Positions 12,300-27,888 of a DNA stretch of 35,578 nt are shown here, piece after piece. The position numbers and the translations under genes were made by a program. Under the pieces are notes generated by a model, which saw only the letters and a list, made by a program, of their open reading frames with translations, searched no databases and was not told where the DNA came from. Where the stretch lies: NCBI RefSeq assembly GCF_004210735.1, contig NZ_SDZL01000029.1, forward strand, positions 1 through 35,578, read 5' to 3'. The stretch's first letter is position 1. Each line of letters opens with the position of its first letter. The stretch comes from Brevundimonas sp. (lineage in GTDB: Bacteria; Pseudomonadota; Alphaproteobacteria; Caulobacterales; Caulobacteraceae).

Positions 12300-12868
12300 G
12301 CGGCGATCTCGGATGGGGCCGGAGCCAGGATACGATGAGCGAAGGCGAAGGCGTCGCAGGCGCCGCGCACCATAGACGCCCGGGCCACGCCCGCCCGGTC
12401 AGCAGCCTCCAGCGCGCCAAGCACATTGCGCCAGCGGGCGCCGGTCTGGTCGCCGTGGATGTCCAGATGCCCCAGACCCGTCAGGTTGACGCCATCCGCC
12501 TTCATGCGCTTCAGCATGACCCGGCCGCCCAGCGCCGATCCCTCGATCACATAGGTCCAGCCCAGGGCCTGACCCAGATCGGGCACGGTCGCGGGTGTGG
12601 GCGTGGCGCCCGCGCCGCCCAGGGCCTGCACATCGATCCGCAAGGCGGCGGAACGGTCGGCGACAGGGACGCCCAGCGCCGCTATCCCGTTGCTCCATTG
12701 GGCAAGGGCTGCCTCGGCGCCCGCGTGCAGGTCCAGCAGGGCCGCCACCATCACCGCGCGCCGCGCCGGGTCGCGCAACCGCGCCTCGACATCAGCCTGA
12801 TCTTCCAGCGCCTGGTGTGCGGCGTGCGTGGCTTGACGCAAATTCTCGAGAACTGAATTGTCGGTCAC
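12296..12868 (-). CDS. bphO: Biliverdin-producing heme oxygenase
   Basis: A 190-aa heme oxygenase, which opens heme to biliverdin, iron and CO and so supplies the phytochrome chromophore. The N-terminal LRQATHAAHQALE carries the proximal heme-ligand His (His18 by the LR-x-AT-xxx-H-xx-LE pattern). The distal helix is YVIEGSALGG (106-115), close to the family consensus Y-V-x-E-G-S-x-L-G-G. Length and motifs fit BphO/HemO-type bacterial enzymes. Its stop overlaps the start of the phytochrome gene. Its promoter must lie in the 129-base gap shared with the divergent ABC ATPase gene, which also holds a LacI-type operator 82 bases from this start. Confidence 0.9.
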   Translation of the reverse strand: MTDNSVLENLRQATHAAHQALEDQADVEARLRDPARRAVMVAALLDLHAGAEAALAQWSNGIAALGVPVADRSAALRIDVQALGGAGATPTPATVPDLGQALGWTYVIEGSALGGRVMLKRMKADGVNLTGLGHLDIHGDQTGARWRNVLGALEAADRAGVARASMVRGACDAFAFAHRILAPAPSEIAA

Positions 12869-12949
12869 GCCCTACCCTATCAGCGCCCAGCGCCCGTCAC
12901 CACGCGCCATGACCCCATAACGCAACGCTGAAGGCATTGATCCCGCCGT

Positions 12950-12961
12950 GTAACCGGTTAC
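12950..12961. promoter_or_regulatory. LacI-type operator before the ABC ATPase gene
   Basis: A perfect 12-bp palindrome, GTAACCGGTTAC, within the 14-mer TGTAACCGGTTACG. The identical 14-mer, in the same orientation relative to the gene, lies before the TonB receptor gene, and a one-base variant lies before the LacI gene. The central CG and AACCGGTT-like arms are typical of LacI-family operators. TTGATC at 12937-12942 could be a -35 box; no clear -10 was found. Confidence 0.8.
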
Positions 12962-12997
12962 GTTGCCCGCCAAGAAAAGATCAGGGCAGGAATCTCC

Positions 12998-14086
12998 ATG
13001 GCTGACGTCCGGCTGACCGGCGTGAAGAAGCGCTTTGGCGCCGTCGAGGTGCTGAAAGGCGTCGATCTGGAGATCGCCGACGGCGAGTTCGTGGTCTTCG
13101 TCGGACCGTCCGGCTGCGGCAAGTCCACCCTGTTGCGCACCATCGCGGGCCTGGAAGAGATCAGCGAGGGCGAGATCGCCATCGGCGGGCGCACGGTCAA
13201 CGACCTGTCGCCGTCGGACCGGGGCATCGCCATGGTGTTCCAGTCCTATGCCCTGTACCCGCACATGACGGTGCGCGAGAACATGGCGTTCGGCCTGAAG
13301 CTGGCGAAAACGGACAAGGCCGAGATCGACCGGCGCGTGACCGCCGCCGCCGAAACGCTGAACATCACCGACTATCTGGATCGCAAGCCCAAGGCCCTGT
13401 CGGGCGGCCAGCGCCAGCGTGTCGCCATCGGCCGGGCCATCGTGCGCGAGCCGCAGGTCTTCCTGTTCGACGAGCCGCTGTCGAACCTGGACGCCGCCCT
13501 GCGGGTGCGGATGCGCTACGAGTTCGCCAGCCTGCACGAGCGGCTGAAGACGACGATGATCTATGTCACCCACGACCAGATCGAGGCCATGACCCTGGCC
13601 GACCGGATCGTGGTGCTGTCGGCCGGGCGGATCGAACAGGTCGGCGCGCCGATGGAGTTGTACGAACACCCCCGCAACCTGTTCGTGGCCGAGTTCATCG
13701 GCAGCCCCAAGATGAACCTGATCGCCGCCGAGGTGGTCCAGGCCTCGACCACCGGCGCCACCGTCAAACTGGCGACCGGCGAGACGGTGAAGGCCGCCGT
13801 GGATGCGGCGCGCGCCAGGCCGGGCGATACGGTCACTTTGGGCGTGCGGCCCGAGCATCTGGCGCTGGACGGGGACGGCGCGGCGATCGCGACCACTGCG
13901 GCCTTCGTCGAGACCCTGGGCCACGCCACCTACGCCTATCTGAACCATCCGGCGTCGAGTGAGACCCTGACCGTCCAGCTTCCGGGCGAAGTACGGCCCT
14001 CGACCGGCGATGCCCTGACCGTGCGCATCCCGGCGGGCAAGACGTATCTGTTCGACGCGGACGGGGTGGCGTTCCAGCGGCTGTAG
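12998..14086 (+). CDS. Sugar ABC transporter ATPase (MalK/UgpC/MsmK type)
   Basis: A 362-aa ATPase that would energise import of an oligosaccharide. The motifs are Walker [10 protein letters not shown] (36-44), Q-loop [16 protein letters not shown], signature LSGGQRQ (134-140), Walker B VFLFDEP (154-160) and switch His192. A C-terminal TOBE/MalK-like regulatory domain (about 235-362) contains [11 protein letters not shown] precedes the ATG. It is the only ATPase gene near the two CUT1-type permeases and binding protein encoded on the opposite strand 3.4-7.5 kb away, which themselves lack one. It also carries the same operator as the TonB receptor gene, so it is very likely the ATPase of that importer. 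MsmK-type ATPases can also serve several importers. Confidence 0.93.
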
Positions 14087-14089
14087 TTC

Positions 14090-14261
14090 CCTTCTCCCCC
14101 TGCGGGAGAAGGTGGGCGCCGGAGGCGCTCGGATGAGGGGTGCGAGCACCGCCTATCCGAACCTCATTCAGGCGTCGGCCGCGACGTTCCAGCCGCGTCT
14201 CCGACACCCCTCATCCGTCTTGCTCCGCAAGCCACCTTCTCCCGCAAGGGGAGAAGGTGGG
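14090..14261. repeat. Second nested inverted-repeat element, between convergent genes
   Basis: This has the same design as the element at 1769-1936. The outer hairpins are CCTTCTCCC/GGGAGAAGG (14090-14112) and CCACCTTCTCCC-GCAAG-GGGAGAAGGTGG (14232-14260), which are inverted copies of each other. An inner inverted pair is GGATGAGGGGTG (14131-14142) and CACCCCTCATCC (about 14205-14216). It begins 3 bases after the ATPase stop codon and ends 2 bases before the stop codon of the convergent enzyme gene, filling the gap. No gene is seen in it. Here it could act as a two-way transcription stop. Confidence 0.85.
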
Positions 14262-14263
14262 CT

Positions 14264-17200
14264 TCATCTCATCGTCACGCGTCGCGCGCCGGTGGGGATC
14301 TTCAGCTCGCCATTCTCGAACCGCGCGCTGCGGCCGTCGATGCGGACGACAGCGGGCGCCGCCTCCCCCTTCGGCCACTGCACCACAAAGCCGCCCGGCG
14401 GCGTGACGCCCGGCTCCAGCGTCAGGACATAGTCACGGCCCTGCTTGCGGAAGGCGTAGGTCAGGGCGCCGTAGGCGGTGCGCAGATCCTTGACGCCGAC
14501 GCCCTCGGCCGTGTCCAGCCATGCGGTCGGCACGCCCGCCGCCAGCACCAGGGCGTGATCCGCGTCGCGCTCGTACGCGAACAGGTCCAGCGCCGAGCGA
14601 ATGTAGTCGCTGCTGATCCAGGCATGCGGCATGTCGCCGATGAAGCGCGGCTCGCGCAGCTCGCGGCCCACCACCTCGGCCCAGCCGTTCCAGGCCTGGG
14701 GCCGCCGGTCGGCCATGAAGAAGTCCAGCGCCTCCATCGCCCGGTCGCGGCGGCCCAGCCGGACCAGCGCCCCGACGTTGCGCCACTCATACGGCGTGTA
14801 ATCCTTCCACAGCGGGCGATTGGCCAAACGGTTCTGGAAATTGGTCCAGTAGCGCTCGAAGGTGTTGTCCAGCAGGTCACGGGGCAGTTCTTCCAGCGCG
14901 CCGCCGGGCGACAGGCCGATGGTGGTCGAGGTGGCGTCGAAATCGCCCCGGTCGGCGGCTCCGGCGATCCAGTCGATGCCGTGGTGCGCGGCCGTCGCGG
15001 TGATCGAGGCCATGATGTCGGTCTGGAACTGGTCGCGCGCGGCGCTCATCCGGGCGGCGGCTTCAGCATCACCCAGGGTCTGCGCGATGAAGACCGCGTC
15101 CTTGTAGCCCAGCAGGCCCCAGAAATCGTCCCAGTAGGAATAGGCCGGCTTGTCCGAATAGCCCTCGTGGCTGATCGTCGGCGGCAACAGGCCGAACAGG
15201 TGGCGCTTGTCCGCCGCCTGGAACTCGGCCGTGCGGGTCGAGGCGCGCAGCTCGTCCATATAGGCGATGGCCTTCTGGACCTGCGGCCAGACCTGACGCA
15301 GCAGGGCCTCGTCGCGGGTGTAGCGATAGGTCTCGGCCGCCAGGAAGACGAACTCGCCGTGGCTGTCGTTCTCGGGCACCGGATCGGCGCCGCGGGCGTC
15401 GACGCAGCACGGCACCTTGCCGTTCTCGAACACATAGGGCGCGTACCAGCGGAGGTATTCCGCTGACAGTTCCGGCAGGCCCAGCCGGTTCAACCCCTCG
15501 GCCATCATGGCTCCGTCGCGGATCCACGAGCGGTTATAGCTGCGGGTGCCGGGTTGCAGGATCGGCCCCTGACGCGACATCAGCATATGCGCCAGCGACG
15601 AGCGCAGCGCGTCCTCGATCCGCTGGGCGGCGGGCGGCAGGGTCAGGTCGAACCGGTCCAGACGCGCCTTCCAGTCGGCGACGACCGCGGCCTCGGCCGT
15701 GTCCAGCGCCGCCTCGATGGAACCGGTGACGACAGGCGCGGGCGATGCGCCCGACAGGGGCGACATGAAGCCAAAGGTCCGCGTCTCGCCCGGTTGCAGG
15801 GTCACATCGTACAGCAAGGCGCCTGCGGGCAGGCCGGTCGCGTCGGACTCGACGTGGCGCTGATCGGCCGGGCGTCGGGCGTCGGTCACGGTCAGCGACT
15901 GCGGATCGGCGCCCTGGTCGAAGGTCGCCATCGACACCGCACTGGGCTGGGCCAGGGTATGGACTCGGATATTGTCGTTCAGCACCAGCGAACCGCCGTT
16001 CCAGTCGATCTGCTGGATCGGGGCGACGCCGCCGGGGATGGCCAGGAACTGCACCGGCCCGTTCACCTGGAACGGCCGCGCCGCCAGCGCCAGGGTCAAG
16101 GTGCGCGGCCGGTTGGACGTGTTGGTCAGGGCGTATCGGCCCCACAGCTGGGCCTGATCCGGCGTGCCGCTGGCGAAGCTGGTGGTGGTCAGGGTCCAGT
16201 CGTCGTGCGTCCACCTGACCCACGGTATCGGCAGATAGTCGTCACGCAGCCCCTGTTCGATCCGCACGTCGGCCCAGCTGATCAGCCGCCCGTTATCGAT
16301 GACGAAGGGTTCGATGGACGGACCCGCACGGCGCAGTTCGATGGCCCCGTCCTCGCCGATCAGGCCGCTCTCGCCGCCACCGTCGACGCCGACCAGCGTC
16401 CAGTACGGCTGCTCGCCGAAGAAGCCGCGCGGATACAGGCCGCGACGGTTCTGTTTCGCCACCGCCTCGACGAAGGACGTCGCGTCCTCGCCAAAGGTCA
16501 GAGGTTCGACCTCGATCTCATTCAGCGCATAGGTCGTGGGGGCGACGACGCCCAGCCGCTGACCGGCGCCGGCCTGACCCTGCACGTCGGGTGACGGGAC
16601 GGGGCGCAGCGGCTCCAGCTTCAGATAGCGGGCGCTGGCCTCGGGCGTGCGCAACCAGTCGACGCCGCCGCTTCCGCCGGTGACGGACGCCAGTTCGCGC
16701 CAATCGCGGCCGTCGGACGAGGACGAGACGCGATAGTCCGCCGCCGCCCCGCGTTCGCCCCAGCGCAGGGTCAGACCGCCGAACTCGCGCTCGTATCCCA
16801 GGTCCAGCGTCAGCGCGGGCGCGCCCGCCACGGCGGGGGTCCAGGCGGTCTTCGGGTTCAGGTCAACCGCCAGCGCGGCGGAGGTGCTCGCCGCGCCGTC
16901 GCGCGCGATCAGGGCGGGTGGGACCAGCGGTTCGGGCGGCAGTTCGCGCAGGGTCAGCTGGTCGATCTCGACATGACCCGCCCCACCCTCTGCGGCGACG
17001 ACGACGAACTCCATCCGCTCGACCTGGCGCAGGATCGTCTCGGGACTGGGTCCCCAGGCCTTGACCACCTGACGGCGTTTGATGACGAACCGGGTCCAGC
17101 CGTCCGGGAAATCATAGCGGGTCGTCTGGCGCCACCAGACATTCTCGGCCGACGCGTCGGTGAATTTGACTTCGAAGGTGTTGGTCGGCCCGGCGCCGCG

Positions 17201-17473
17201 CACCCAGAAGCTGATCTCGTAGTTTTCCGGCAGGTCGAACGGCAGCGGCCGCGCGGCGAAGGCGTAGCCGGCCTTGCCGTTGAAATCATAGTCGAGGCGC
17301 AGCGCCCGCCCCTCCTTGCCCGCCACCGACGACACGCGCGAGGTCACGTCGGTCGAGGCGTCGGCGGTCCAGCGGCCCGCGTCCTCGAACCCGTCCAGCA
17401 GGCGGGGCTCCTGCGCGAAAGCGGGGGCGGCCATGGCCAGCGCGGCCACGGTCGTCAGGAGAAAGGAACGCAT
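14264..17473 (-). CDS. Secreted multi-domain (alpha/alpha)6-barrel-type glycoside hydrolase candidate
   Basis: A 1069-aa exported protein. The signal peptide MRSFLLTTVAALAMAAPAFA is followed by a probable cleavage before QEP. Domain 1 (about 25-175) looks like a beta-sandwich carbohydrate-binding domain. Domain 2 (about 185-340) looks like a discoidin (F5/8 type C) domain (KTAWTP, GLTLRWGERG, SSSDGRDWREL, ARYLKLEPL). A beta-rich region (about 340-610) precedes a helical region (about 620-960) with YNRSWIRDGAMMAEGLNRLG, ENDSHGEFVFLAAETYRYT and GDMPHAWISSDYIRS, resembling (alpha/alpha)6 glucosidases. I cannot name its GH family. ATG 17473 is preferred over 17479 because of GGAG seven bases upstream. 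It is the last gene of the importer operon, 39 bases after the permease gene, so it probably processes the imported or captured glycan. Confidence 0.75.
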   Translation of the reverse strand: MRSFLLTTVAALAMAAPAFAQEPRLLDGFEDAGRWTADASTDVTSRVSSVAGKEGRALRLDYDFNGKAGYAFAARPLPFDLPENYEISFWVRGAGPTNTFEVKFTDASAENVWWRQTTRYDFPDGWTRFVIKRRQVVKAWGPSPETILRQVERMEFVVVAAEGGAGHVEIDQLTLRELPPEPLVPPALIARDGAASTSAALAVDLNPKTAWTPAVAGAPALTLDLGYEREFGGLTLRWGERGAAADYRVSSSSDGRDWRELASVTGGSGGVDWLRTPEASARYLKLEPLRPVPSPDVQGQAGAGQRLGVVAPTTYALNEIEVEPLTFGEDATSFVEAVAKQNRRGLYPRGFFGEQPYWTLVGVDGGGESGLIGEDGAIELRRAGPSIEPFVIDNGRLISWADVRIEQGLRDDYLPIPWVRWTHDDWTLTTTSFASGTPDQAQLWGRYALTNTSNRPRTLTLALAARPFQVNGPVQFLAIPGGVAPIQQIDWNGGSLVLNDNIRVHTLAQPSAVSMATFDQGADPQSLTVTDARRPADQRHVESDATGLPAGALLYDVTLQPGETRTFGFMSPLSGASPAPVVTGSIEAALDTAEAAVVADWKARLDRFDLTLPPAAQRIEDALRSSLAHMLMSRQGPILQPGTRSYNRSWIRDGAMMAEGLNRLGLPELSAEYLRWYAPYVFENGKVPCCVDARGADPVPENDSHGEFVFLAAETYRYTRDEALLRQVWPQVQKAIAYMDELRASTRTAEFQAADKRHLFGLLPPTISHEGYSDKPAYSYWDDFWGLLGYKDAVFIAQTLGDAEAAARMSAARDQFQTDIMASITATAAHHGIDWIAGAADRGDFDATSTTIGLSPGGALEELPRDLLDNTFERYWTNFQNRLANRPLWKDYTPYEWRNVGALVRLGRRDRAMEALDFFMADRRPQAWNGWAEVVGRELREPRFIGDMPHAWISSDYIRSALDLFAYERDADHALVLAAGVPTAWLDTAEGVGVKDLRTAYGALTYAFRKQGRDYVLTLEPGVTPPGGFVVQWPKGEAAPAVVRIDGRSARFENGELKIPTGARRVTMR

Positions 17474-17512
17474 CGGCATACTCCGCTCAGCGCCCTGCGG
17501 CGCGGGGTGGGT

Positions 17513-18334
17513 TCAGCCCTTCACGCTGCCCGCGAGCATGCCGCGGATGTAGTAGCGTTGCAGGGCGAGGAAGAGGATCAGCACGGGGGCCACGGTCACC
17601 ACCGCGCCCGCCATCATCAGCTCGATGTCCTGGACGTGCTCGCGCGACAGGGCGGCCAGCGCCACCGGCAGGGTATAGTTCGACTGGTCCGTCAGGATGA
17701 TCAGCGGCCACAGGAAGTCGTTCCAGCTGCCCAGGAAGACGAACAGGCCCAGCGTCACGATGATCGGCTGCAGCGTCGGCAGGACCACCCGGCGGAAGAT
17801 CTGCCCCTCGGTGGCGCCGTCGATGCGGGCGGCCTCCAGCATCTCGTCCGGGATCGATAGCGAATACTGCCGCACCAGAAACAGGCCGAATATCGACGCC
17901 AGCCACGGCACCAGCGCCCCGGCGTAGGTGTTCACCAGTCCCACCGACTTCAGCATCAGGAACAGCGGCAGAGTGCCGATCTGGGCCGGCACCACCAGGG
18001 CGGCGATCAACAACTGGAACAGCCGGTCGCGGCCCGCGAACTTCAGCTTGGCGAAGGCGTAGCCGGCCGGAACGGTGAAGGCCAAGGCCAGCAGGGTCGC
18101 CAGCGTCGCCAGAGCGAAGCTGTTCCAGACATAGCGCCCCATGCCCTGGTTCACGAACAGGTCGCGGTAATGCTCCAGCGTAAAGGCCTTGGGCAGCAGC
18201 GGCGGCGGGAAGGTCGCGGCCTCGCCCGTGGACATGAAACTGACCGAGGTCATCCACAACAGCGGGAACAGAACGATCAGCGCCACGACCGCGACGGCGA
18301 GATTCAGCAGGATGGCCTTGGGTCTGATCGTCAT
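17513..18334 (-). CDS. Sugar ABC transporter permease (MalG/CUT1 type)
   Basis: A 273-aa inner-membrane permease with six predicted membrane segments. It carries the EAA loop EAARIDGATEGQIFRRVVLP that docks to the ATPase, and the C-terminus LALQRYYIRGMLAGSVKG typical of MalG-type subunits. The start is ATG 18334, whose ATGA overlaps the stop of the preceding permease gene. The longer open frame reaching 18718 only reads the other permease gene out of frame. It forms the second half of the membrane channel with the upstream permease. Confidence 0.94.
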   Translation of the reverse strand: MTIRPKAILLNLAVAVVALIVLFPLLWMTSVSFMSTGEAATFPPPLLPKAFTLEHYRDLFVNQGMGRYVWNSFALATLATLLALAFTVPAGYAFAKLKFAGRDRLFQLLIAALVVPAQIGTLPLFLMLKSVGLVNTYAGALVPWLASIFGLFLVRQYSLSIPDEMLEAARIDGATEGQIFRRVVLPTLQPIIVTLGLFVFLGSWNDFLWPLIILTDQSNYTLPVALAALSREHVQDIELMMAGAVVTVAPVLILFLALQRYYIRGMLAGSVKG

Positions 18335-19233
18335 TGCTCGGTCCCCAGACGGCGCGACACCCACAACTGCACCAGGGTGACCGCGAAGATGCACAGGAAC
18401 AGGATGAAGGCGACGGCGCTGGCGGAGCCCAGATTCCACCATTTGAAGCCCTCTTCGTACATGAAGTAGAGCACCGTCACGGTCGACTGGGCGGGGCCGC
18501 CTTGCGTCATCACATAGGGCTCGGCGAACAGTTGGAAGAAGCCCGCGACCGAGATGATCGACACCAGCAGCATGGTCGGTGCGATGGCCGGCAGGGTGAC
18601 ATGGCGGAACTGCTTCCATGGCCCGGCGCCGTCGATGCGGGCGGCCTCGTACAGGTCGTCCGGCACGGTCTGCAGCACGGCCAGGAAGATCAGCATGTTG
18701 TAGCCGAAGATCTTCCACACCACGAACATCAGGATGGCGGGGATAGACGTCGAGGGATCACCCAGCCAGTCGACCGGCGGCAGGCCGACGCCCTGCAGCG
18801 CCCAGTTGATGACGCCGTAACGGGTGTGCAGCAGGTATCGCCAAACCACCGCCGTGGCGACCAGGGTGGTGACATAGGGGGCGAAGAACATCACCCGCCA
18901 GATCGGCCGCCACTTCACCACCCGCGCGTTCAAGATGACGGCGGCGGCCAGCGAGGCGGCGATGGACAGGGGCACGCCCAGAACGGCGAACCACACCGTG
19001 TTCTTCATCGCCCCCCAGAACAGCGGGTTGCCCAGCAGGTTCTGATAATTCTGAAACCCGACGAAACGCAGGTTGTTCAGGTCGGCCAGCGCATAGATGT
19101 CGAAGTCGGTCAGGCTGAGCAGCAGGGCCGAGATCACCGGCACGGCGAAGAACAGGCCGACGGCCAGCAGCGCCGGGGCGACGAAGGTCCAGGCGGCCCG
19201 CTCGCGACGGCGAATGGCGGAAACGGCGCTCAT
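18331..19233 (-). CDS. Sugar ABC transporter permease (MalF/CUT1 type)
   Basis: A 300-aa inner-membrane permease. After the basic N-terminus, ERAAWTFVAPALLAVGLFF forms the first of six membrane segments. NYQNLL is a family hallmark (N-Y-x-x-L), and the EAA loop is EAARIDGAGPWKQFRHVTLP. EPYVMTQGGP matches the MalF-type region before the last segments. It overlaps the binding-protein gene upstream and the second permease gene downstream by 4 bases each, so the three importer genes are translated as a unit. Confidence 0.94.
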   Translation of the reverse strand: MSAVSAIRRRERAAWTFVAPALLAVGLFFAVPVISALLLSLTDFDIYALADLNNLRFVGFQNYQNLLGNPLFWGAMKNTVWFAVLGVPLSIAASLAAAVILNARVVKWRPIWRVMFFAPYVTTLVATAVVWRYLLHTRYGVINWALQGVGLPPVDWLGDPSTSIPAILMFVVWKIFGYNMLIFLAVLQTVPDDLYEAARIDGAGPWKQFRHVTLPAIAPTMLLVSIISVAGFFQLFAEPYVMTQGGPAQSTVTVLYFMYEEGFKWWNLGSASAVAFILFLCIFAVTLVQLWVSRRLGTEQ

Positions 19234-20492
19234 GATCCCCTGCCCCGGTCGAGCATCCAGCGGCGTTTCTCCAGCAGGCGGTCGGCGCGGCGGTCGATCT
19301 CGGCGGCGGCGCTTTCAGGCGTGAACTGGCCGCGCACCATGCGTTCGGCGACGATCTGCATTTCGGTGACCACGCGCTCCCACTCCGGCGCCTTGGGCAC
19401 GGCCTCGGCCCGCGCCAGCTGGTCGCGGAAGGGCTGAAGCAGCGGGTCGTTGGCGATGGCCGGCGCGCTCCAGGCGCTTTCACGCGCGGGCAGGTTACCG
19501 GTCAGCGTGTTGAACTGGACCTGCACGTCGGGCTGCAGCAGGAAGCGCACCAGCTTCCACGCCGCGTCCTGATGCGGTGATGACTTGAACACCGCCAGCG
19601 ACGATCCGCCGGGCGCCGAGGCGCCGGGACCGCGCGGGCCGGGCACGCCCGCCGTCGCCCATTTCGTCTCGGGCGGCAGGCGATTGCGGAAATCGCCGAT
19701 GGTCCAGGGACCGGAGAAATAGAAGCTGAAATAGCCCTTGGCGAACTCGGTCCAGACGTTTGAAATCTGCGTCGCCGACACCAGCGGCGCCAGCTGCTCG
19801 TCGAACAGGCTCTTGTAGAAGGCCAGGGCCGCGACGAAGCCGGGGCTGGAGAAATTGCCCCGTGTCGCATCGTCCCGCAGCAGCGGCTCGTCCGCCTGCA
19901 ATCCAAAGGTCAGAAGTTGCTCAAACTCGTTGACCGGCAGCAGGATGGCGTAGTTGCCCGGCCCGGCCACGCGCTTGACCGCATGCATGGCGCGCTTCCA
20001 CTCGGCCCAGTCGCCCGGCACGGCGTCATAGCCCGCCCGGTTCAACAGATCGGTGCGGTGGAAGATCAGTCGCGTGTCCACATACCAGGGCGTGGCCATG
20101 GCCTGGCCGCCGATCTCGTTCGTCTCCAGCACCGCCGGGAACTGATCGGTCAGCAGGTCGGCAGCCGACGCCGGCGTCGGCGACAGGGCGCCGATAGCCG
20201 ACAGCTCCGACACCCAGGTGTTGCCGATCTGGGCCACGTCCGGCAGCGAATCCCCGGCGTATGCGGTCAGCAGTTTCTCGTGCGCCGCCGTCCACGGCAG
20301 CGGCTGGACCGAGACGCGCACGCCGGGGTTCAGCCGCTCGAAGGCCGGGATCAGGGCGGGGACGTTGGTCCCCTCGTTCCCCATGGCCCACAGACGCAGC
20401 CGCACCTCGCCCGCCGTGCGGGGCGCGCAGGCGGTCAGCCCTGCCCCCGCCAGCAGACCCAGCGCGGCGCGCCTGTCGGGCCTCAGGCTCAC
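19230..20492 (-). CDS. Extracellular sugar-binding lipoprotein of the ABC importer
   Basis: A 420-aa family-1 solute-binding protein. The start is GTG 20490-20492, overlapping the GH144-like gene's stop (GTGA). The frame stays open up to 21170, but that part is out-of-frame GH144 sequence. The N-terminus has a twin-arginine-like RPDRRAALGLL and the lipobox LTAC (Cys22), so it is probably an inner-membrane-anchored periplasmic lipoprotein. Typical SBP features are VRLRLWAMGNEG, ALIPAFERLNPGVRVSVQPLPW, LPDVAQIGNTWVSEL, TPWYVDTRLIFHRTDLL and the C-terminal TPESAAAEIDRRADRLL. It would deliver an oligosaccharide to the two permeases. The exact ligand is not readable from sequence. Confidence 0.92.
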   Translation of the reverse strand: MSLRPDRRAALGLLAGAGLTACAPRTAGEVRLRLWAMGNEGTNVPALIPAFERLNPGVRVSVQPLPWTAAHEKLLTAYAGDSLPDVAQIGNTWVSELSAIGALSPTPASAADLLTDQFPAVLETNEIGGQAMATPWYVDTRLIFHRTDLLNRAGYDAVPGDWAEWKRAMHAVKRVAGPGNYAILLPVNEFEQLLTFGLQADEPLLRDDATRGNFSSPGFVAALAFYKSLFDEQLAPLVSATQISNVWTEFAKGYFSFYFSGPWTIGDFRNRLPPETKWATAGVPGPRGPGASAPGGSSLAVFKSSPHQDAAWKLVRFLLQPDVQVQFNTLTGNLPARESAWSAPAIANDPLLQPFRDQLARAEAVPKAPEWERVVTEMQIVAERMVRGQFTPESAAAEIDRRADRLLEKRRWMLDRGRGS

Positions 20493-21922
20493 GCCTTGTC
20501 CAGCCAGCCGCCGGTGAAGCCCGCGCGCTTCAGACCGCGCACGATGTTCGGCTCGCCGTGCATGCGGTTCCAGACGATGCCGCTGCGATGGTTCTCGGTC
20601 ATGATGACGATCGGCCCCTGGTCGATGCCCAGATAGTCGCCGTCGACCCAGCCGATCCCGTCCACGATCTTGCCGTGCAACAGCGGCTTGTCGGTGCTGG
20701 TCAGGGTCGGGTTGAAGCTGTCCAGGAAGCCGTACTCGGCATAGATGGCCGCGCCGTACTTGTCCTTCATCGCCTTGACGCAGGTGGTGACCAGCTCCGG
20801 CTCGAAGGCGATGGAGGAGGCCGCCGCCGTGGGCGCGATGGTGCCGTCGTCCCGCTCGCCCGGGCCGCGCGCGGAGTAGCTGAAGAACTCGCGTTCCTGG
20901 CCGTTCACGACCTGTTTGAAATCGCCCGGCCCGTCGCACGCCGTCAGACCCCAGACATCGGCCGAATAGCCGGCCCAGCCGCGCGGATTGTCGGCGCCGT
21001 ACTTCTGTTGCGCCTGAACGGCGCGGCGGCTGTTCTCGAAATAGTCGAAGCCGGGGATCTCGGCCTGACGGTCGCGCATCCAGGCGTCCTGGATGCCGCG
21101 GAAGTCGATGAACATGTGGCTGTACTGGTGACCGAACAGCGGGGCGAAATGCAGGTGCTTGGGCCCCCACTTGTCGGTGAAGCTGCGGTCATAGACGCTG
21201 CACCACTCGGTCCAGACACCCGGATCGACCGGGTGGGTCGGGCTGCCCAGCGCCTGGATCAGGACGATCATACCCTCGTTGTAGACGTTCCAGTCGGCCT
21301 CGATGAAGCCGCTCTCGGGGTGCCAGCCCATCGAGATGCGGTTCGGGCGCACGACCAGCCACGGCCATTCGATCCGCTCATAGATCACCTGGGTCAGGCG
21401 ACGGATCTCGGCCTCGTCGGCGTGGTCGCCGTCGAACCAGCGGGCGGCGAACATCATGCCGCCCATCAGCAGGGCGGTGTCGACGCTGGACAGTTCGGTC
21501 TGGCCGAAGCGGTGACCGGTCTCCATGTCCAGGAAGTGATAGAAGAAGCCCTTGTGACCGCCGACGCCGGTCGCCTCGGGCCCCTGCTTCAGGTCATGCA
21601 GGAAACGGATGGTGGTCAAGGTGCGCTCACGCGCCTGTTCGCGCGTGATCCAGCCGCGCTCGACCCCGATGGGCCAGACGGCCAGGGCGTCGCCGATGGC
21701 CGCGACTGAGGCGAACGACTTGGTCGGCCAGCGGTCCGGCGTCATGCCGTTGCGGGCGTTGGTGGTGTCCCAGAACCAGCGGAACGAGCGGTGCTGCAGA
21801 TCGTCGATGACCGGATCCAGCGTCACGGCCGCCTGAACACCCGTCGCGCCGGCGTTGCAGCCGACCAGGGCCATCGCCGCGCCTGCGGCCACCGTCCCCA
21901 TCAAAAACCCACGACGATCCAT
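20489..21922 (-). CDS. GH144-like glucanase (glycoamylase-domain, PF10091 type)
   Basis: A 477-aa exported protein. The N-terminus has twin arginines (MDRRGFLMG) and a lipobox-like ALVGC, so it may be a Tat-exported lipoprotein. The body matches the glycoamylase (PF10091) pattern: QHRSFRWFWDTTNARNGMTP, an alternating helical array, GGHKGFFYHFLDMETGHRF, SSVDTALLMGGMMFAA, GWHPESGFIEADWNVYNEG and FGHQYSHMFIDFRG. Characterised members of this group in family GH144 are endo-beta-1,2-glucanases or sophorose-releasing enzymes; that this protein does the same is inference. The ATG has GGAAGGAGC upstream. It follows a terminator-like hairpin after the TonB receptor gene and overlaps the binding-protein gene by 4 bases. 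Confidence 0.8.
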   Translation of the reverse strand: MDRRGFLMGTVAAGAAMALVGCNAGATGVQAAVTLDPVIDDLQHRSFRWFWDTTNARNGMTPDRWPTKSFASVAAIGDALAVWPIGVERGWITREQARERTLTTIRFLHDLKQGPEATGVGGHKGFFYHFLDMETGHRFGQTELSSVDTALLMGGMMFAARWFDGDHADEAEIRRLTQVIYERIEWPWLVVRPNRISMGWHPESGFIEADWNVYNEGMIVLIQALGSPTHPVDPGVWTEWCSVYDRSFTDKWGPKHLHFAPLFGHQYSHMFIDFRGIQDAWMRDRQAEIPGFDYFENSRRAVQAQQKYGADNPRGWAGYSADVWGLTACDGPGDFKQVVNGQEREFFSYSARGPGERDDGTIAPTAAASSIAFEPELVTTCVKAMKDKYGAAIYAEYGFLDSFNPTLTSTDKPLLHGKIVDGIGWVDGDYLGIDQGPIVIMTENHRSGIVWNRMHGEPNIVRGLKRAGFTGGWLDKA

Positions 21923-21958
21923 GCCGGCTCCTTCCGTCAGAAATTCTACTCAAAACAT

Positions 21959-22001
21959 ACAAAAAAGAAGGGCCGCCCTCACCCGTGGGCAAGGGCGGCC
22001 C
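21959..22001 (-). terminator. Rho-independent terminator after the TonB receptor gene
   Basis: On the minus strand GGGCCGCCCT (22001-21992) pairs perfectly with AGGGCGGCCC (21979-21970) over a 12-base loop and is followed by TTCTTTTTT. It begins 14 bases after the receptor stop codon and ends 37 bases before the GH144-like gene in the same direction. It would therefore end most receptor messages and let only part of transcription enter the downstream genes. Confidence 0.88.
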
Positions 22002-22014
22002 CAAGGCTCAGGAG

Positions 22015-24900
22015 TTAGAAGCTGTACCGCAGACCGATCTGGAAGCTGCGGGTCGGACCGGTGAGACGCGAGGGCTCACCGAAGTTGGCGTTCACATTGC
22101 CCGGGCGCGGGATGAAGCCGCCGACCCAGGTTTCGTAGCCGTAGTTCTTGAAGTTGAAGGCGTTGATCACGTCCAGGATGACGCTGATCTGCTGCTGGTT
22201 GGGAAGACCGAAGTCCTTCGAGAAGCGGAAGTCGACCTGACGGAAGGCGAAGGCGTCCGGGATGATGAAGTCGAACTTCTCCGGCTCACCACCGCCCGGC
22301 AGGAAGGTGACGCCGCCGCCGACGTTGTCACGCACCTGCTCATAGCGCTGGCCCGTACCCAGGGTGATCAGGGTCGAACCGGTGATGCCCCAAGCCATGT
22401 CCTTGATGGCGCTGAAGACGATGCGGTGACGTTCCGCAGCCTCGGCCGGGTGCCAGCCCCAGGCGGCGGCGTCCGGTTCGTCCAGGGCGTACGGTCCGCG
22501 CGCGCCGTATTCCTCGGCGTCGGCGAAGGTCCAGGCGAAGTTCATGCCCCAGCCCGAGTCACGCGTGTACGGCTTGTCGATCGTCAGGAACAACGCGTCA
22601 TAGCTGCTCTCGTCCTTGGACTCGCTGACGATGATGTTGCTGTAGCCGGCGGGCGCCTGACCCCAGGGCAGGTTGTTGTTCGCGTCCCGGAACGAGCCAT
22701 CCGCATAGCGGTTGGCCAGCACCCACGAGAAGCCGTCGTAGCTGTTGATGTGCGAATAGGTCAGCGCAGTGTTGAACTGTCCGAGCGTCTTGCGCACGCC
22801 CAGCGAGAACTGGTCCGAATAGGGCAGCTTCACATCGTTCGACAGCATGTAGGCTTCTGCGCCGCCGGCGCCGCCGGTGACGAGGGCCAGCAGGGCGTCC
22901 TTGTCATAATAGGCGTCGCTCCACGGCGTCGCGCCGTTGAACTGGACCTCATAGACCCGATAGTTCGACTTGGCGTACTCGACCTGGGCGTAGTCGTAGA
23001 GGACGCGGTCATAGTACCGGCCCGCGCCGCCGAACACGACCAGGCTGGCGTCGTCATAGACGTCGTAGCTGAAGCCGATCCGCGGCTGGAAGGCGCCCGT
23101 GAAGCTGTCACGGTTGTTGCCGTCCGAGATGTATTCTTCCCAGTTGATGTCGCGATTGTTCGCCCAGGCCCGAACCGCAGCGGCCAGGGCCGCCGGCGTC
23201 ACGAAATCGTTGTTGAGCATGTTGGACTCATAGTCCCAACGCAGGCCTAGGTTCAGCTGCAGCTTGTCGGTGACATCCCAGTCGTCCTGGATATAGAGGC
23301 CGATCTGGGTGTTGTCGCCGCTGGACAGCGGATCGCCCAGGCCCACGCGCGCCCGGATGGGATCGCCAGCGAAGGTGTAGTCGCCGTTGGCGTAGGTGTA
23401 TTCCGGGTTGAAGAACTCGAACTGGACGGCTTCATACTCGATGAAGGCGACCTTGCCGCCGATCTTCACCAGGTGATCGCCCAGCGACAGGAAGGTGAAA
23501 TCGTTACGCAGGGTGAGGCCGGTTTGACCCTTGTCCTGGGTGAAGGTCCGGGCGCCGACCTGCAGGTCGCCGTTGTCCGTCTTCACGCTGCGCGCGCCGC
23601 TGACGGCGCTTGGCGCCCACGACGCATCCAGGTAGTCGATCGAGGCTTCGTTCAGGAACGAACCACCCGACCAGCTCCAGCGCAGGTTGGCGCTGGTAGT
23701 CTGGACGGTGATGTCCTCAGCGCGGTCACGAGTGGTGCCGCCGCCGAAGCCGCGAACGTCCGTTTCATCACGACGCGTGACGCTCAGGTCCACGGTGTGG
23801 TTGTCGGCGGGCGTCCAGCTCAGCTTGCCGAAATACAGCTCGCTGCGGAACGGAACGACGAAATTGCCTTCGTACTGATCGCGGATCGCTTGCGGGATCG
23901 CGTCATTCAGGTCCACGCGCGTGGCGCGATCCTGATTGTTGGCCTCGTAGCTCAGGAAATAGTGCAGACGGTCACGCAGGATCGGACCACCGACCCAGCC
24001 GCCGTACTGCTGGCGCTCATATTCGGGCTGCGGCGCGCCGTTGCGTTCGTCGAAATAGTCCGGCGAAGTCAGGCCCTTGTCCTGATAGTAGCCGAACAGT
24101 TCGCCCTGGAAGTCGTTGGTGCCCGAACGCGTCACCGCCGTGATGACGGCCGCGCCGGCCTGCTCGTATTCAGCCTTGTGGTTCTGGGTCGAGACCCGGA
24201 ATTCCTGGATTGCGGCCTGCGGGAACGGGTTACCGCGGCTGGAATCCTGACCGGCCAGCCCGCCCTGGGTCACGTTGTTCTTCAGGCTTTGACCGTCGAT
24301 GAAGACGTTGGTGTTGTTGGCGCTCAGCGCGCCGGACGAGAACACCTTGCGCTCCGGATTGTCCGAGACCGTCACGCCGGGCGCCAGCGCCGCGAAGTTC
24401 AGGAAGTTGCGCGAGTTCTGGGGCAGGTTGTTGATCTGCTCGGTCGAGACGTTGGTGGCCACTTCCGACGTCTTGACCTCGATCAGGCGACGGCCGGTGA
24501 CGACGACGTCGCCCAGGTCGGTCGCGCCCGGCGCGACGGCCACGGCGGTCGCGGGAACGTCCAGGTCCAACACGGCCGACTGGCCGACGGCCAGGACAAC
24601 ATCCTCGCTGGTGGTGCGACCGTCATCGGTGGTCACCTGGATGCGATAGGTTCCCGGACGCAGGCCGGCCAGGACATAGTTGCCCTGGGCGTTGACGGTC
24701 GCGCGGGCGGTGAAGCCGGTGGCGATCTCGGTCGCCGTGACGCGGGCGCCGGGTTCAGCCTGGCCGTTGTCGGAGACGGCGCCCCGCAGGGTCGAGCTGG
24801 CGACCTGGGCGGTGGCGGCGCCGGCCGAGGCCAGCGAGATGGCGACGGCCAAGGCCGAAGCGGCGCCGAGCCAGTATTTGGTGTTGGTCTTCGTGGACAT
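22015..24900 (-). CDS. TonB-dependent receptor, carboxypeptidase-regulatory (Oar/SusC-like) type
   Basis: A 961-aa outer-membrane transporter that would import oligosaccharide into the periplasm using TonB energy. The start is ATG 24900, with GAGGAAACC upstream; the open frame to 25017 lacks such a site and would add a tail before the signal peptide. The signal peptide ends around SAGAATAQVA. Next is a carboxypeptidase-regulatory-like beta-sandwich (about 30-105, LRGAVSDNGQAEPGARVTAT), then a TonB-box-like DVVVTGRR, the plug (NNLPQNSRNFLNFAALAPGV, NTNVFIDGQSLKNN) and a long beta-barrel ending RSFQIGLRYSF with the terminal Phe needed for barrel assembly. A LacI-type operator lies 100 bases upstream and a strong terminator directly downstream. 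Confidence 0.93.
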   Translation of the reverse strand: MSTKTNTKYWLGAASALAVAISLASAGAATAQVASSTLRGAVSDNGQAEPGARVTATEIATGFTARATVNAQGNYVLAGLRPGTYRIQVTTDDGRTTSEDVVLAVGQSAVLDLDVPATAVAVAPGATDLGDVVVTGRRLIEVKTSEVATNVSTEQINNLPQNSRNFLNFAALAPGVTVSDNPERKVFSSGALSANNTNVFIDGQSLKNNVTQGGLAGQDSSRGNPFPQAAIQEFRVSTQNHKAEYEQAGAAVITAVTRSGTNDFQGELFGYYQDKGLTSPDYFDERNGAPQPEYERQQYGGWVGGPILRDRLHYFLSYEANNQDRATRVDLNDAIPQAIRDQYEGNFVVPFRSELYFGKLSWTPADNHTVDLSVTRRDETDVRGFGGGTTRDRAEDITVQTTSANLRWSWSGGSFLNEASIDYLDASWAPSAVSGARSVKTDNGDLQVGARTFTQDKGQTGLTLRNDFTFLSLGDHLVKIGGKVAFIEYEAVQFEFFNPEYTYANGDYTFAGDPIRARVGLGDPLSSGDNTQIGLYIQDDWDVTDKLQLNLGLRWDYESNMLNNDFVTPAALAAAVRAWANNRDINWEEYISDGNNRDSFTGAFQPRIGFSYDVYDDASLVVFGGAGRYYDRVLYDYAQVEYAKSNYRVYEVQFNGATPWSDAYYDKDALLALVTGGAGGAEAYMLSNDVKLPYSDQFSLGVRKTLGQFNTALTYSHINSYDGFSWVLANRYADGSFRDANNNLPWGQAPAGYSNIIVSESKDESSYDALFLTIDKPYTRDSGWGMNFAWTFADAEEYGARGPYALDEPDAAAWGWHPAEAAERHRIVFSAIKDMAWGITGSTLITLGTGQRYEQVRDNVGGGVTFLPGGGEPEKFDFIIPDAFAFRQVDFRFSKDFGLPNQQQISVILDVINAFNFKNYGYETWVGGFIPRPGNVNANFGEPSRLTGPTRSFQIGLRYSF

Positions 24901-24999
24901 GGTTTCCTCGATGAAGAAGTGTTTTTGGGCTCTGAGCCCGAAGGTCTGGAAAGCGAAAGCCCGCCTAGCGACGCCGATCCTCTTGAAAGGCGGCGCGGC

Positions 25000-25011
25000 G
25001 TAACCGGTTAC
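25000..25011. promoter_or_regulatory. LacI-type operator before the TonB receptor gene
   Basis: A perfect palindrome GTAACCGGTTAC, identical to the one before the ABC ATPase gene at 12950-12961. On the minus strand the sequence reads TTGACTGTAACCGGTTACG, so a -35-like TTGACT directly abuts the operator, a placement that suits repression. It lies 100 bases before the receptor start codon, within the gap after the LacI gene. Confidence 0.85.
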
Positions 25012-25050
25012 AGTCAAGCTTGCTCTGGTCCGTCTCCTCGATCTCGCGGC

Positions 25051-26103
25051 CTAGTGGGCCGGGGCGCTGGCGGGGGTCCGCGCCGGGGTTGATTGGGAAG
25101 GGTTGGTTGCCGTGCTGGACTGGCGCACGACCAGTTCGGGACGCACGATTTCGCAGGCAGTGTCGGACACGGCGGCGCGAGGGTCATCGACCATGGCAAC
25201 CAGCCGCTCCAGCGCGCGGGCGCCGGTCTCGGCGACGCCGGAACGAAGCGTCGTCAGCGACGGACGAATGAAGGCGGCCAGCGGAATATCGTCAAAGCCG
25301 ACGACAGCGATGTCTTCGGGGCAGCGGACGCCCGCATCCTGCAGCGCCAGCAGGGCGCCGACGGCCATCATGTCGTTGGCGGCGAACAGGCCGTCGGGGC
25401 GATCCGCCCGCGTGGCCAGATTGACGCCGGCCGCATGGCCGGACGCCTGCATGAAGTCGCCCTGGACGACCATGGGCGGCAGGCCCGCCTGGGCCATGGC
25501 CTCCAGATAGCCGGCCAGCCGGGCCTCGGCTTCCAGGTTGCCGGCGGGACCGGCGATGTGGGCGATGCGGCGGCGTCCGATCGACAGCAGATGTTCGACC
25601 GCCGTCACGGCGCCGCCCCGGTTGTCGACGATGATCGAGGGACGGCCGGAGTCCACCGCGCCGCTGTTCATCAGCAGCACCGGCAAGCTCCCCGCCAGGT
25701 TGGCGGCCAGGTTCGCGGCGTCGATATGGGGCGACAGCACGATCAGCCCGTCCACCCTGCCCCGCATCGAGCGGATGGCCGACGACACTTCTTCGGTGTC
25801 GCCGTGCGAGCTGGAGACGATCAGGTGATAGCCGGCGCGGCGCGCGGCCACGTCCATGCCGCGGATCAGCTCGGAAAAGAACTCGCCGTACAGGTCGGGC
25901 AGGATGACGCCGACCGTCTGGGTCTTGCTGGTCGACAGGCTGCGGGCGCCGGAATGCGGCACATAGCGCAGCGTCTCGATCGCCTGCATGACCCGCAGGC
26001 GCGTCGCCTCGGTCACGGCGTCGGCGCTGTTCAGGACGCGGGAAACGGACGCCACGGAAACCTGCGCATGGCGCGCGACATCGCGGATCGTGGCGGCCTT
26101 CAT
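25051..26103 (-). CDS. LacI-family transcriptional regulator
   Basis: A 350-aa regulator. The N-terminal helix-turn-helix ATIRDVARHAQVSVASVSRVLN (4-25) and hinge helix (YVPHSGARSLSTSKT) bind the operator. The rest is a periplasmic-binding-protein-like sensor domain (VGVILPDLYGEFFSELIRGM, GLIVLSPH, GLFAANDMMAVGALLAL, VVGFDDIPLAAFIRPSLTTL). The last about 20 residues (SQSTPARTPASAPAH) are a low-complexity tail not usual in the family. Its gene lies just upstream of the TonB receptor gene, and operator-like palindromes precede the receptor, the ATPase and this gene itself, so it very likely controls the whole glycan locus and its own expression. The inducer is probably an oligosaccharide released by the locus enzymes. 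Confidence 0.92.
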   Translation of the reverse strand: MKAATIRDVARHAQVSVASVSRVLNSADAVTEATRLRVMQAIETLRYVPHSGARSLSTSKTQTVGVILPDLYGEFFSELIRGMDVAARRAGYHLIVSSSHGDTEEVSSAIRSMRGRVDGLIVLSPHIDAANLAANLAGSLPVLLMNSGAVDSGRPSIIVDNRGGAVTAVEHLLSIGRRRIAHIAGPAGNLEAEARLAGYLEAMAQAGLPPMVVQGDFMQASGHAAGVNLATRADRPDGLFAANDMMAVGALLALQDAGVRCPEDIAVVGFDDIPLAAFIRPSLTTLRSGVAETGARALERLVAMVDDPRAAVSDTACEIVRPELVVRQSSTATNPSQSTPARTPASAPAH

Positions 26104-26210
26104 GCCGTCACGCGCGGTAGCGGACGCGGTCGCATCCTGGTTTCCAAAGACATCCTCCCTGACAACCGCACCGTCCCGGCCCCCTTATCGAAGGTCCGTC
26201 AGCTCGGGGT

Positions 26211-26222
26211 GTAAACGGTTAC
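26211..26222. promoter_or_regulatory. Variant LacI-type operator before the lacI-family gene
   Basis: GTAAACGGTTAC within TGTAAACGGTTACA, one base different from the perfect palindrome at the other two sites. It lies 108 bases before the regulator start codon and suggests weaker, autoregulatory binding. The rest of the 219-base gap to the esterase gene shows no further gene. Confidence 0.7.
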
Positions 26223-26322
26223 ATGACACACCACCGGCCCGACACGCAAGCGCCTCGCTTCGGACACAAGGCTTACGGCCCGTTCACAGGGCGTTTCCCC
26301 GTCCCCTGTGGCGTTTGCGCCC

Positions 26323-27888
26323 TCAGCGAGGGTCCAGTCGGCGAAAGTGCGACTCGATCAGATCCAGCCGGTCCGCGTTCGGCACGGGCTTTTCGATCGG
26401 CCCGGCGTTGGTGAATTCCAGCAGGTGAGTCGCGCCCGTCCCCACCCGGGGCCAGATCGGATGGTCGCCGCCATTGGGATCGCCGGCGCGGGCGAAGGCG
26501 GTCCAGTAGTCGGCCATGGCGGTGGCCGCGCGCTGGTCCATGTCGTCGGTCGCCCAGGACGAGGCGGTCAGGTTGTCGAACACATAGGGCCGCTCGGACG
26601 CATGGGTCGCCCCGCCGTGCGGCTCGGGCATGGCGGCCGACACCACATCGAACCGATAGAGGTAGGTCGGATGCCCCGCCGCCGCGTGCAGGCGCGCCAG
26701 GGCGCGAGCGGGCTCGTTGAAGATCATGTCGCTGATGATGTCGGCCTCGAACCCCGGCGCCCCGCCGTAGGCGTCGATCAAGGCCGCGCGCTCTGCGTCG
26801 TCCAGCGTGTCGTCGACCCCGCCATAGGCGCCGGGATCGTTCGGCTTGATCCACCAGAACTCCTTGCTGTTCGTGCCGATAATCAGGGGGACCGGGGCCT
26901 GACGCCCGGTGGCGAAGGCGTCGATCACCTGCTGCGCCACCACCTGGCCGTCGATCAGCGTCAGATCCCCGCCAAAGAAGCTGGGCGCGGGTGTCAGGAA
27001 GGCGTCGGCGGGCACAGCGCGCAGGGCGTCAGCCGTCACCGTCTCGGCCATACCCAGACCGGCGACAAAGGCTTCGCCCCTCACCTGCGCCGATGGCTCG
27101 CCGCGGTCGCCCGGCTGCTCCAGCCGGGTCGAGCGCTCACGTCCCAGACCCGACTGAACCACGGCCCGGTGGAACAGGCTGCGCGCAGGCGGCGCGATCA
27201 TCAGCCGCGTCACCGCCGCCCCGCCCGCCGATTCGCCGAACACGGTCACCGCCTCCGGATCGCCGCCGAAGGCCGCGATATTGGCGCGGACCCAGCCCAG
27301 CGCCGCGATGATGTCCATAAGCCCATAGTTTCCGCCCGGCTCATCCTCCGCCCGCTCGGCCGCCAGGGCGGGATGATCGAAGAAGCCCAGCCGACCCAGC
27401 CGATAGTTCAGCGTCACCACCACCACGCCACGCCGGGCCAACGCCGCGCCGTCATACAGGGCCGCCGTCCCCGAGCCGTTATTGAAGCCGCCGCCGTGGA
27501 TCCAGACCATGACCGGCAGCGGGGCCGATCCGGCGCCCTCGGGTCTCCAGATATTCAGGTTCAGGCAGTCCTCGCTCATCGGCATCGGACCGACGCCGGG
27601 GTCGCCGTTGGCGGGCGGCTGGATGCACAGGGCGCCCATGGCGCCGGCGTCGCGGGGTCCGCTCCAGCCCTCGGCCGCGCGCGGCGCCCGCCAGCGCAGG
27701 GCGCCGACCGGCGGCGCGGCATAGGGAATGTTCAGCCACGCGGTCACACCCTCGCGACTGCGGCCAACCAGTTCGCCCTGGTTCACGCGGACGACCGGAC
27801 GATCCGGAACAGGCGCCGAGGCGGCAGGAGATGCGGTGATCATGCAGACCAGGGCGATGAGGGACAGGAAAGAACTGGCGCGCTTCAT
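26323..27888 (-). CDS. Secreted type-B carboxylesterase
   Basis: A 521-aa alpha/beta-hydrolase of the carboxylesterase type-B/para-nitrobenzyl esterase family. The signal peptide (residues 1-25, ending ASPAASA) indicates export. The family landmarks are SEDCLNLNIW (105-114), oxyanion-hole HGGGF (131-135), nucleophile Ser220 in the GESAGG elbow, NYRLGRLGFF, and the His-bearing segment PEPHGGATHASERPYVF. Length and order are normal. It lies upstream of the LacI gene in the same direction, but a variant operator and 219 bases separate them, so it is probably its own unit. It might remove acyl groups from the glycan handled by the neighbouring locus, but nothing in the sequence proves this. Confidence 0.9.
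   Translation of the reverse strand: MKRASSFLSLIALVCMITASPAASAPVPDRPVVRVNQGELVGRSREGVTAWLNIPYAAPPVGALRWRAPRAAEGWSGPRDAGAMGALCIQPPANGDPGVGPMPMSEDCLNLNIWRPEGAGSAPLPVMVWIHGGGFNNGSGTAALYDGAALARRGVVVVTLNYRLGRLGFFDHPALAAERAEDEPGGNYGLMDIIAALGWVRANIAAFGGDPEAVTVFGESAGGAAVTRLMIAPPARSLFHRAVVQSGLGRERSTRLEQPGDRGEPSAQVRGEAFVAGLGMAETVTADALRAVPADAFLTPAPSFFGGDLTLIDGQVVAQQVIDAFATGRQAPVPLIIGTNSKEFWWIKPNDPGAYGGVDDTLDDAERAALIDAYGGAPGFEADIISDMIFNEPARALARLHAAAGHPTYLYRFDVVSAAMPEPHGGATHASERPYVFDNLTASSWATDDMDQRAATAMADYWTAFARAGDPNGGDHPIWPRVGTGATHLLEFTNAGPIEKPVPNADRLDLIESHFRRLDPR

Follow-up and report, generated by a model that had tools for sequence, protein, structure and literature searches.

β-1,2-Glucans, which are both periplasmic and secreted, have roles in symbiosis and disease, and their natural recycling has been little studied. 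Among solved structures in the PDB, the closest to the enzyme considered here is the GH144 (glycoside hydrolase family 144) protein XcSGL of Xanthomonas campestris, which is reported to act on β-1,2-glucan and for which none of the other polysaccharides tried gave detectable activity (PMC12102758), and the nearest binding protein with a characterized ligand is Lin1841 of Listeria innocua, which is described as binding the sophoro-oligosaccharides Sop3-5 (PMC12369401). We here analyze a block of genes that encodes relatives of both in a stretch of 35,578 nucleotides (nt) from Brevundimonas sp. (contig NZ_SDZL01000029.1, our contig C27), referred to below as the window, which is part of a genome assembly of 2,826,095 bases in 165 contigs with a completeness of 95.7%. 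The block combines a LacI-family regulator, an outer-membrane receptor, the GH144 protein, an importer of the ATP-binding cassette (ABC) class and a large protein of 1,071 amino acids (aa), here termed E1071. On the basis of gene content, a conserved neighborhood, operator-like sites and sequence relationships, all of them observed directly, we consider it probable that this conserved block is a LacI-controlled regulon for the uptake and digestion of β-1,2-glucans from other bacteria.

Gene content, predicted substrate and conservation of the block

Two unrelated proteins of the block indicate the same sugar and thereby support β-1,2-glucan as its predicted substrate. The first is the GH144 protein (20489 to 21922, minus strand), a predicted lipoprotein with an RR motif that matches Pfam PF10091 (Glycoamylase, which includes GH144) with an E value of 4.5e-74; NCBIfam listed nothing for it. 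Its closest match in the PDB is 8xul, which is XCC2207/XcSGL bearing an E239Q mutation (E 1.9e-155), and it also matches CpSGL (5gzh, E 2.1e-38). In the alignments, its E216, F263 and Y349 fall on E239, F286 and Y367 of XcSGL, the residues reported to define the clan of β-1,2-glucanases (PMC12102758), and D148 falls on E142, the base candidate of CpSGL, so that an acidic residue is kept at this position. We predict that it is an endo-acting β-1,2-glucanase. The second is the predicted binding lipoprotein (19230 to 20492, minus strand, with a GTG start at 20492; Pfam SBP_bac_1). Its best PDB match is Xac-MalE from Xanthomonas citri (3uor, E 2e-135), the ligand of which is given as unknown in the source consulted (PMC7676653), followed by Lin1841 (E 5.9e-58), with the other chains listed at 2.3e-31 or weaker. 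A first-pass annotation, made from the sequence alone, had linked the GH144-like enzyme to a β-1,2-glucan locus, and both comparisons support that assignment.

The binding protein is one component of a CUT1 importer, the others being a MalF/UgpA-like permease (18331 to 19233) and a MalG/UgpE-like permease (17513 to 18334), both on the minus strand and recognized by Pfam (BPD_transp_1) and NCBIfam, and a MalK/UgpC-type ATPase (12998 to 14086, plus strand), which displays the Pfam domains ABC_tran, OB_MalK and TOBE_2 and scores above the NF008653 cutoff. The receptor (22015 to 24900, minus strand) matches OMP_b-brl_4, CarboxypepD_reg and TonB_dep_Rec, with E values for the barrel domains of 3.8e-52 (PF25183) and 1.7e-7 (PF00593). 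The Plug domain (PF07715) was not listed at E 0.001, and for that reason we call the protein TonB-type, a correction to the first-pass annotation. The LacI-family regulator (25051 to 26103, minus strand) is recognized by both Pfam and NCBIfam, and E1071 occupies positions 14264 to 17479 of the minus strand. All eight genes claimed by the first-pass annotation for the block, which spans 12949 to 26223, are present where it had placed them, with the correction that the large protein has 1,071 rather than 1,069 aa. Signal sequences, judged by eye without a predictor, comprise a Sec-type start in E1071, which is predicted to be exported, and, in the GH144 and binding proteins, cysteines of the lipoprotein type accompanied by paired arginines.

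A search of genome contigs with an E1071 alignment recovered 349 relatives, the best 80 of which, leaning toward Brevundimonas, were taken as loci (numbered with the prefix L); 68 of these have at least 7 kb upstream of E1071 and were assessable, and 64 have 5 kb downstream. GH144 is present in 67 of the 68 assessable loci, as are the binding protein and both permeases (67/68), with the receptor in 65 and LacI in 60. Outside Brevundimonas and its near relatives, as grouped by record title (20 loci), GH144 was found in 19 and the ATPase in 14. The loci of this group include members of Lysobacteraceae, Rhodanobacteraceae, Steroidobacter, Burkholderiales, Hyalangium, Sphingomonas, Phenylobacterium, Hyphomicrobium and Glycocaulis, so that the block, with phyla assigned partly from record titles, extends over Alpha-, Beta- and Gammaproteobacteria and Myxococcota. 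It is a conserved neighborhood across distant bacteria. The sole assessable locus lacking GH144 is from a member of the Polyangiaceae (L068); in a Sphingobium locus (L089) the importer is absent and a GH3 gene is present, and E1071 and the block run divergently, not collinearly, in L064, L065 and L080. A Xanthomonas sacchari plasmid keeps the gene order of the block, including E1071, and a Croceibacterium plasmid shows the order GH3-receptor-GH144-E1071. The X. sacchari homologue of E1071 (L007:13689-17141) is an intact frame of 1,150 aa for which the plasmid's incomplete gene table holds no feature.

The "matching operators" of the first-pass annotation were recovered as three near-identical palindromes. 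TGTAACCGGTTACG occurs at 12949 to 12962 (read on the plus strand, 5' of the ATPase gene) and again at 24999 to 25012 (read on the minus strand, 99 nt ahead of the start of the receptor gene), and TGTAACCGTTTACA lies at 26210 to 26223 (read on the minus strand, upstream of lacI). With at most one mismatch, GTAACCGGTTAC has three sites in the window against 0.01 expected, and the pattern TGTAANCGNTTACN is found at three places in the whole genome, all of them in the window at these palindromes. When up to two mismatches are allowed, the genome has 10 such places, compared with one for a reversed control pattern. Across 84 related loci we counted 73 sites, for which the nearest gene is that of LacI in 48 cases, the ATPase in 22, and GH3 and the receptor in one each, with one left unassigned. 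The block is likely to be under LacI control, with these palindromes as candidate operators.

E1071 and the predicted last step of digestion

E1071 combines an N-terminal region that weakly resembles CBM11, below threshold, with an F5/8 type C (CBM32-like) region, a β-sandwich and an (α/α)6 barrel. The F5/8 type C matches are the only ones above threshold in Pfam, and NCBIfam listed nothing for the protein; for its catalytic part, we found neither a curated Pfam or NCBIfam match nor a family in the open-access literature searched. GH15 (PF00723) was not listed for E1071 even at E 10, and it matched 5 of 40 relatives at E values of 1 or lower (best E 0.0048). When profiles were compared, E1071 matched an alignment of 13 GH15 sequences with a probability of 91% (E 1.1e-6), and a single GH15 sequence gave 1% only. 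The predicted fold agrees with a GH15 barrel, and the structural relatives among the matches listed, at 13 to 14% identity, include an isomaltose glucohydrolase (5z3a-e), a dextran dextrinase (9ju0) and a glucodextranase (1ug9), the latter two of which we take to be GH15 members. E935 lies in the part of the alignment that contains the general base of GH15 enzymes. E772 and D784, the candidates for the general acid, are both invariant, and D784 was dropped as the first choice when profile alignments placed the two residues differently. These observations suggest that the catalytic half of E1071 is distantly related to GH15 and that the protein is an inverting glycosidase. A GH94-type phosphorylase is not favored: Pfam GH94 was not listed at E 10, and the profile comparison gave 0.7%, with only two sequences on the GH94 side.

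GH15 enzymes act on α-glucosidic bonds, and the GH15-type fold occurs in β-specific families too. A likeness to an α-acting family would be odd in a β-1,2-glucan block unless the substrate has an α-bond, and it is on this ground that we propose an α-1,6 bond as the target. The α-1,6-cyclized β-1,2-glucan of Xanthomonas is reported to have one such bond per ring of 16 glucoses (PMC11228985), and related α-1,6-cyclized rings are described from Ralstonia and Cereibacter (PMC11842490). We accordingly suggest that E1071 may remove this single bond; the fold by itself would suit either anomer, and the family resemblance of E1071 points to an α-bond in preference to the sophorose bond. A bolder version, in which E1071 founds a new GH family as a distant sister of GH15 and, by cutting the lone α-1,6 bond, completes a pathway for the osmoregulated or virulence glucan of other bacteria, appears to us unlikely as a whole. 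In Methylosinus, a relative with 32% identity to E1071 adjoins a gene of the 1,2-β-oligoglucan phosphorylase type (SOGP_N, E 3.1e-68). A Methylosinus plasmid cluster (L008:2609-12421) groups an SbmA/BacA-like ABC protein, a GH15 protein and an SOGP-type phosphorylase with an E1071-like protein that has no visible signal sequence.

The first-pass annotation had noted the absence of GH94 and GH3 from the block, which a Pfam scan confirmed, and had left the last step to a gene elsewhere or to the large enzyme. GH94 was not found in the genome (95.7% complete) by a search that matched control genomes. The genome does encode a GH3 protein on contig C62 (L092:1456-3765, P0121), 59% identical to the GH3 protein beside the Croceibacterium block, and TGAAACCGGTTACA, with one mismatch to the operator, overlaps the start of its gene. 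In L092 alone, a match with three or fewer mismatches appeared in 51 of 200 shuffles and is thus not rare by chance, so that the site draws its weight from the single mismatch, its position at the start and the relatives. We compared 30 GH3 loci (L103-L132, our own among them), chosen as the best from 71 genomes that gave a match: a perfect site is centered about 12 nt before the extrapolated GH3 start in four relatives (L104, L105, L106 and L108), a site with one mismatch is present in our own locus and in L109, and L115 was unreadable. All five relatives with a site carry GH144. In L057, GH3 adjoins the block and has a site, and in L089 a site lies between divergent GH3 and LacI genes. Across 101 genomes of the genus, GH144 is present in 69 and a GH3 orthologue (best matches with at least 58% identity) in 64; 58 have both, 11 have GH144 alone and 6 have GH3 alone (Fisher p 3e-10, with relatedness ignored). 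The last step is thus probably performed by a GH3 β-glucosidase encoded on contig C62, which gives a candidate to that part of the earlier proposal that placed it elsewhere.

Outside Brevundimonas, a GH1-cluster gene is located near the block in 12 of 28 loci, and the one member that was scanned with Pfam, from L065, matches PF00232 with an E value of 6.1e-162. The GH1 protein of Glycocaulis has no visible signal sequence, and a GH1 enzyme acting on sophoro-oligosaccharides has been reported (PMC12369401). As the finishing enzyme of the Brevundimonas genome itself, GH1 was set aside after the Glycocaulis query returned no match, which is a weak negative.

These elements can be arranged into a pathway. 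The outer-membrane receptor is the component expected for import, after which the GH144 lipoprotein would cut the glucan internally into sophoro-oligosaccharides. E1071 would then remove linkages beyond the reach of GH144 and β-glucosidase, most plausibly the single α-1,6 bond of α-1,6-cyclized glucans, and the CUT1 importer would bring short oligosaccharides inward. Finally, a β-glucosidase would release glucose, here most likely the GH3 enzyme behind the operator-like site on contig C62 and elsewhere the nearby GH1 enzyme seen in 12 non-Brevundimonas loci.

Probable origin of the glucan and rival readings

MdoG/OpgG was not found in the genome (95.7% complete) by a search that matched an E. 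coli control, and PF10091 has a single match in it. Cyclic glucan synthases are described as combining a GH94-type phosphorylase part with a GH144-related part (PMC11842490). The known routes of β-1,2-glucan synthesis were thus not detected in the genome, which favors scavenging, although the absence of synthesis genes is no proof because the genome is incomplete. The glucan is probably foreign, derived from other bacteria, and the earlier suggestion of scavenging gains support from these results. The converse, that the block recycles the cell's own periplasmic glucans, has a precedent of sorts in X. campestris, which encodes XcSGL and is reported to make a cyclic β-1,2-glucan of its own (PMC11228985); given the missing MdoG/OpgG and GH94, the lone PF10091 protein and a receptor expected for import, we regard it as very improbable in Brevundimonas.

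The most serious competitor retains the glucan and changes the enzyme: E1071 might be an exo-enzyme acting on β-1,2 linkages that trims sophoro-oligosaccharides prior to import, with no α-bond involved. We place its chances a little below even, considering that the profile match is to GH15 rather than to GH94, the latter represented by two sequences, and that E935 aligns in the general-base region of GH15. The GH15 likeness could also be taken together with the Mal/Ugp-like permeases and ATPase, and with the MalE name given to the relative from Xanthomonas citri (Xac-MalE, 3UOR), to portray the importer as a maltose/trehalose system and the block as an α-glucan locus with a glucoamylase-like E1071. 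That name comes without a stated ligand in the cited account (PMC7676653), Lin1841 ranks above the maltose binders listed, and at all but one of the assessable loci E1071 has GH144 for company, in nearly every case along with the importer, all of which renders an α-glucan locus highly unlikely. Small plant sophorosides, such as flavonol sophorosides, are similarly poor candidates for the imported substrate: they are reported to occur naturally (PMC12369401), and a TonB-type receptor with a Lin1841-like binder would suit disaccharide conjugates as well, but an endo-acting GH144 enzyme and a large multimodule E1071 are better suited to a polymer, and for XcSGL it has been suggested that occupation of subsite -3 as well as subsite +2 is needed (PMC12102758).

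Several observations weigh against the regulon for foreign β-1,2-glucans that we prefer. The ATPase is present in just 33 of the 64 E1071 loci with 5 kb downstream; distant E1071 relatives on Methylosinus and Methylocystis plasmids had no GH144 in the stretch examined; and the association was counted starting from E1071 loci. With regard to regulation, only 1 of the 73 sites in relatives precedes a receptor gene, so that the receptor site of the window is not a general feature, and 23 of 29 GH3 relatives have at least four mismatches, that is, no operator-like site, which limits LacI control of GH3 to a lineage. A further site with one mismatch, at C1:20879 (L093:1501-1514), lies about 29 nt upstream of a gene that encodes a predicted lipoprotein of unrelated-looking type, which we take to be of the endonuclease/exonuclease/phosphatase type; the site is possibly either a chance occurrence or an extra regulon member. 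As for the last step, the GH3 protein looks exported (RR signal, by eye) and would therefore yield glucose outside the cytoplasm. Searches of the genome for GH1 and GH94 yielded no enzyme that would act on the oligosaccharides brought in by the ABC importer; an empty result with the Glycocaulis GH1 query alone proves little. The step assigned to E1071 is based on distant resemblance only. Lastly, the Xanthomonas source of XcSGL makes its own glucan, so the block may recycle there rather than scavenge.

Neighboring genes and comparison with known clusters

The convergent ATPase and E1071 genes are separated by an inverted repeat (14090 to 14257) with 53-nt arms that are 81% complementary. At the ATPase end of the block, a bacteriophytochrome-type histidine kinase (10185 to 12868; PHY, GAF and HisKA_2/HWE domains) is encoded beside a heme oxygenase gene. 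At the other end, upstream of lacI and on the same strand, lies a gene for a carboxylesterase-family protein with a signal-like start (26323 to 27888). It was rejected as a conserved partner in the regulon for two reasons: among the 68 assessable loci, most of which show just about 1 kb past LacI, it stands next to LacI in 8, all of the Brevundimonas group, with one more match, at 39%, elsewhere in L089; and no site of the operator pattern belongs to it. It is possibly an optional deacylase of the block. Three loci from outside Brevundimonas (L006:6129-6884, L071:13872-14687 and L074:13123-13845; the L006 member was scanned) have a small gene of the α/β-hydrolase type close to the block, the product of which could deacylate the glucan.

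The block is well supported as a variant of the known β-1,2-glucanase gene clusters. Like these, it has GH144 beside a binding protein of the sophoro-oligosaccharide-binding type and ABC permeases; a GH94 or GH3 β-glucosidase gene inside the cluster is missing. One such cluster comes from the Gram-positive Listeria innocua. Its lin1839-1841 region shares a homologous binding protein and a GH3 β-glucosidase (PMC12369401), which in Brevundimonas is encoded elsewhere. It differs in that lin1839 is a GH94 phosphorylase (PMC3960220) and in having no outer-membrane receptor as far as these accounts go. The β-1,2-glucanase cluster of Ignavibacterium album shares GH144 enzymes, a Lin1841-like binder together with an ABC importer, and a TonB-dependent transporter for which a role in uptake was suggested, and it has GH94 and GH35, whereas GH94 was not found in Brevundimonas and GH3 or GH1 enzymes are the candidates for the last step; the portion of that account consulted does not mention E1071 (PMC8861115). 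In Xanthomonas, XCC2207/XcSGL and XCC2208, with consecutive locus tags, pair GH144 with a TonB-type receptor as in Brevundimonas, and XCC2208 has been reported to be without a canonical plug, like the receptor of the window (PMC1790865). In X. sacchari, unlike in Brevundimonas, edd, pgl, glk and zwf sit between E1071 and ugpC. E1071 itself differs from GH15 enzymes, to which it is 13 to 14% identical, in having no listed PF00723 match and in adding F5/8 type C and CBM11-like modules.

More broadly, the block provides a concrete and widespread candidate pathway for β-1,2-glucans in Proteobacteria and Myxococcota, and Xac-MalE, named by analogy only, gains a likely ligand. E1071 represents an enzyme type for which no curated family was found in Pfam or NCBIfam; if it does open α-1,6-cyclized glucans, it would offer an analytical tool and a degradation step for that bond. 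Compared with the described systems, the type of cluster is already known, and what is new is that E1071 is a constant companion, that GH3 is a predicted member of the regulon and that the gene order is so widely conserved.

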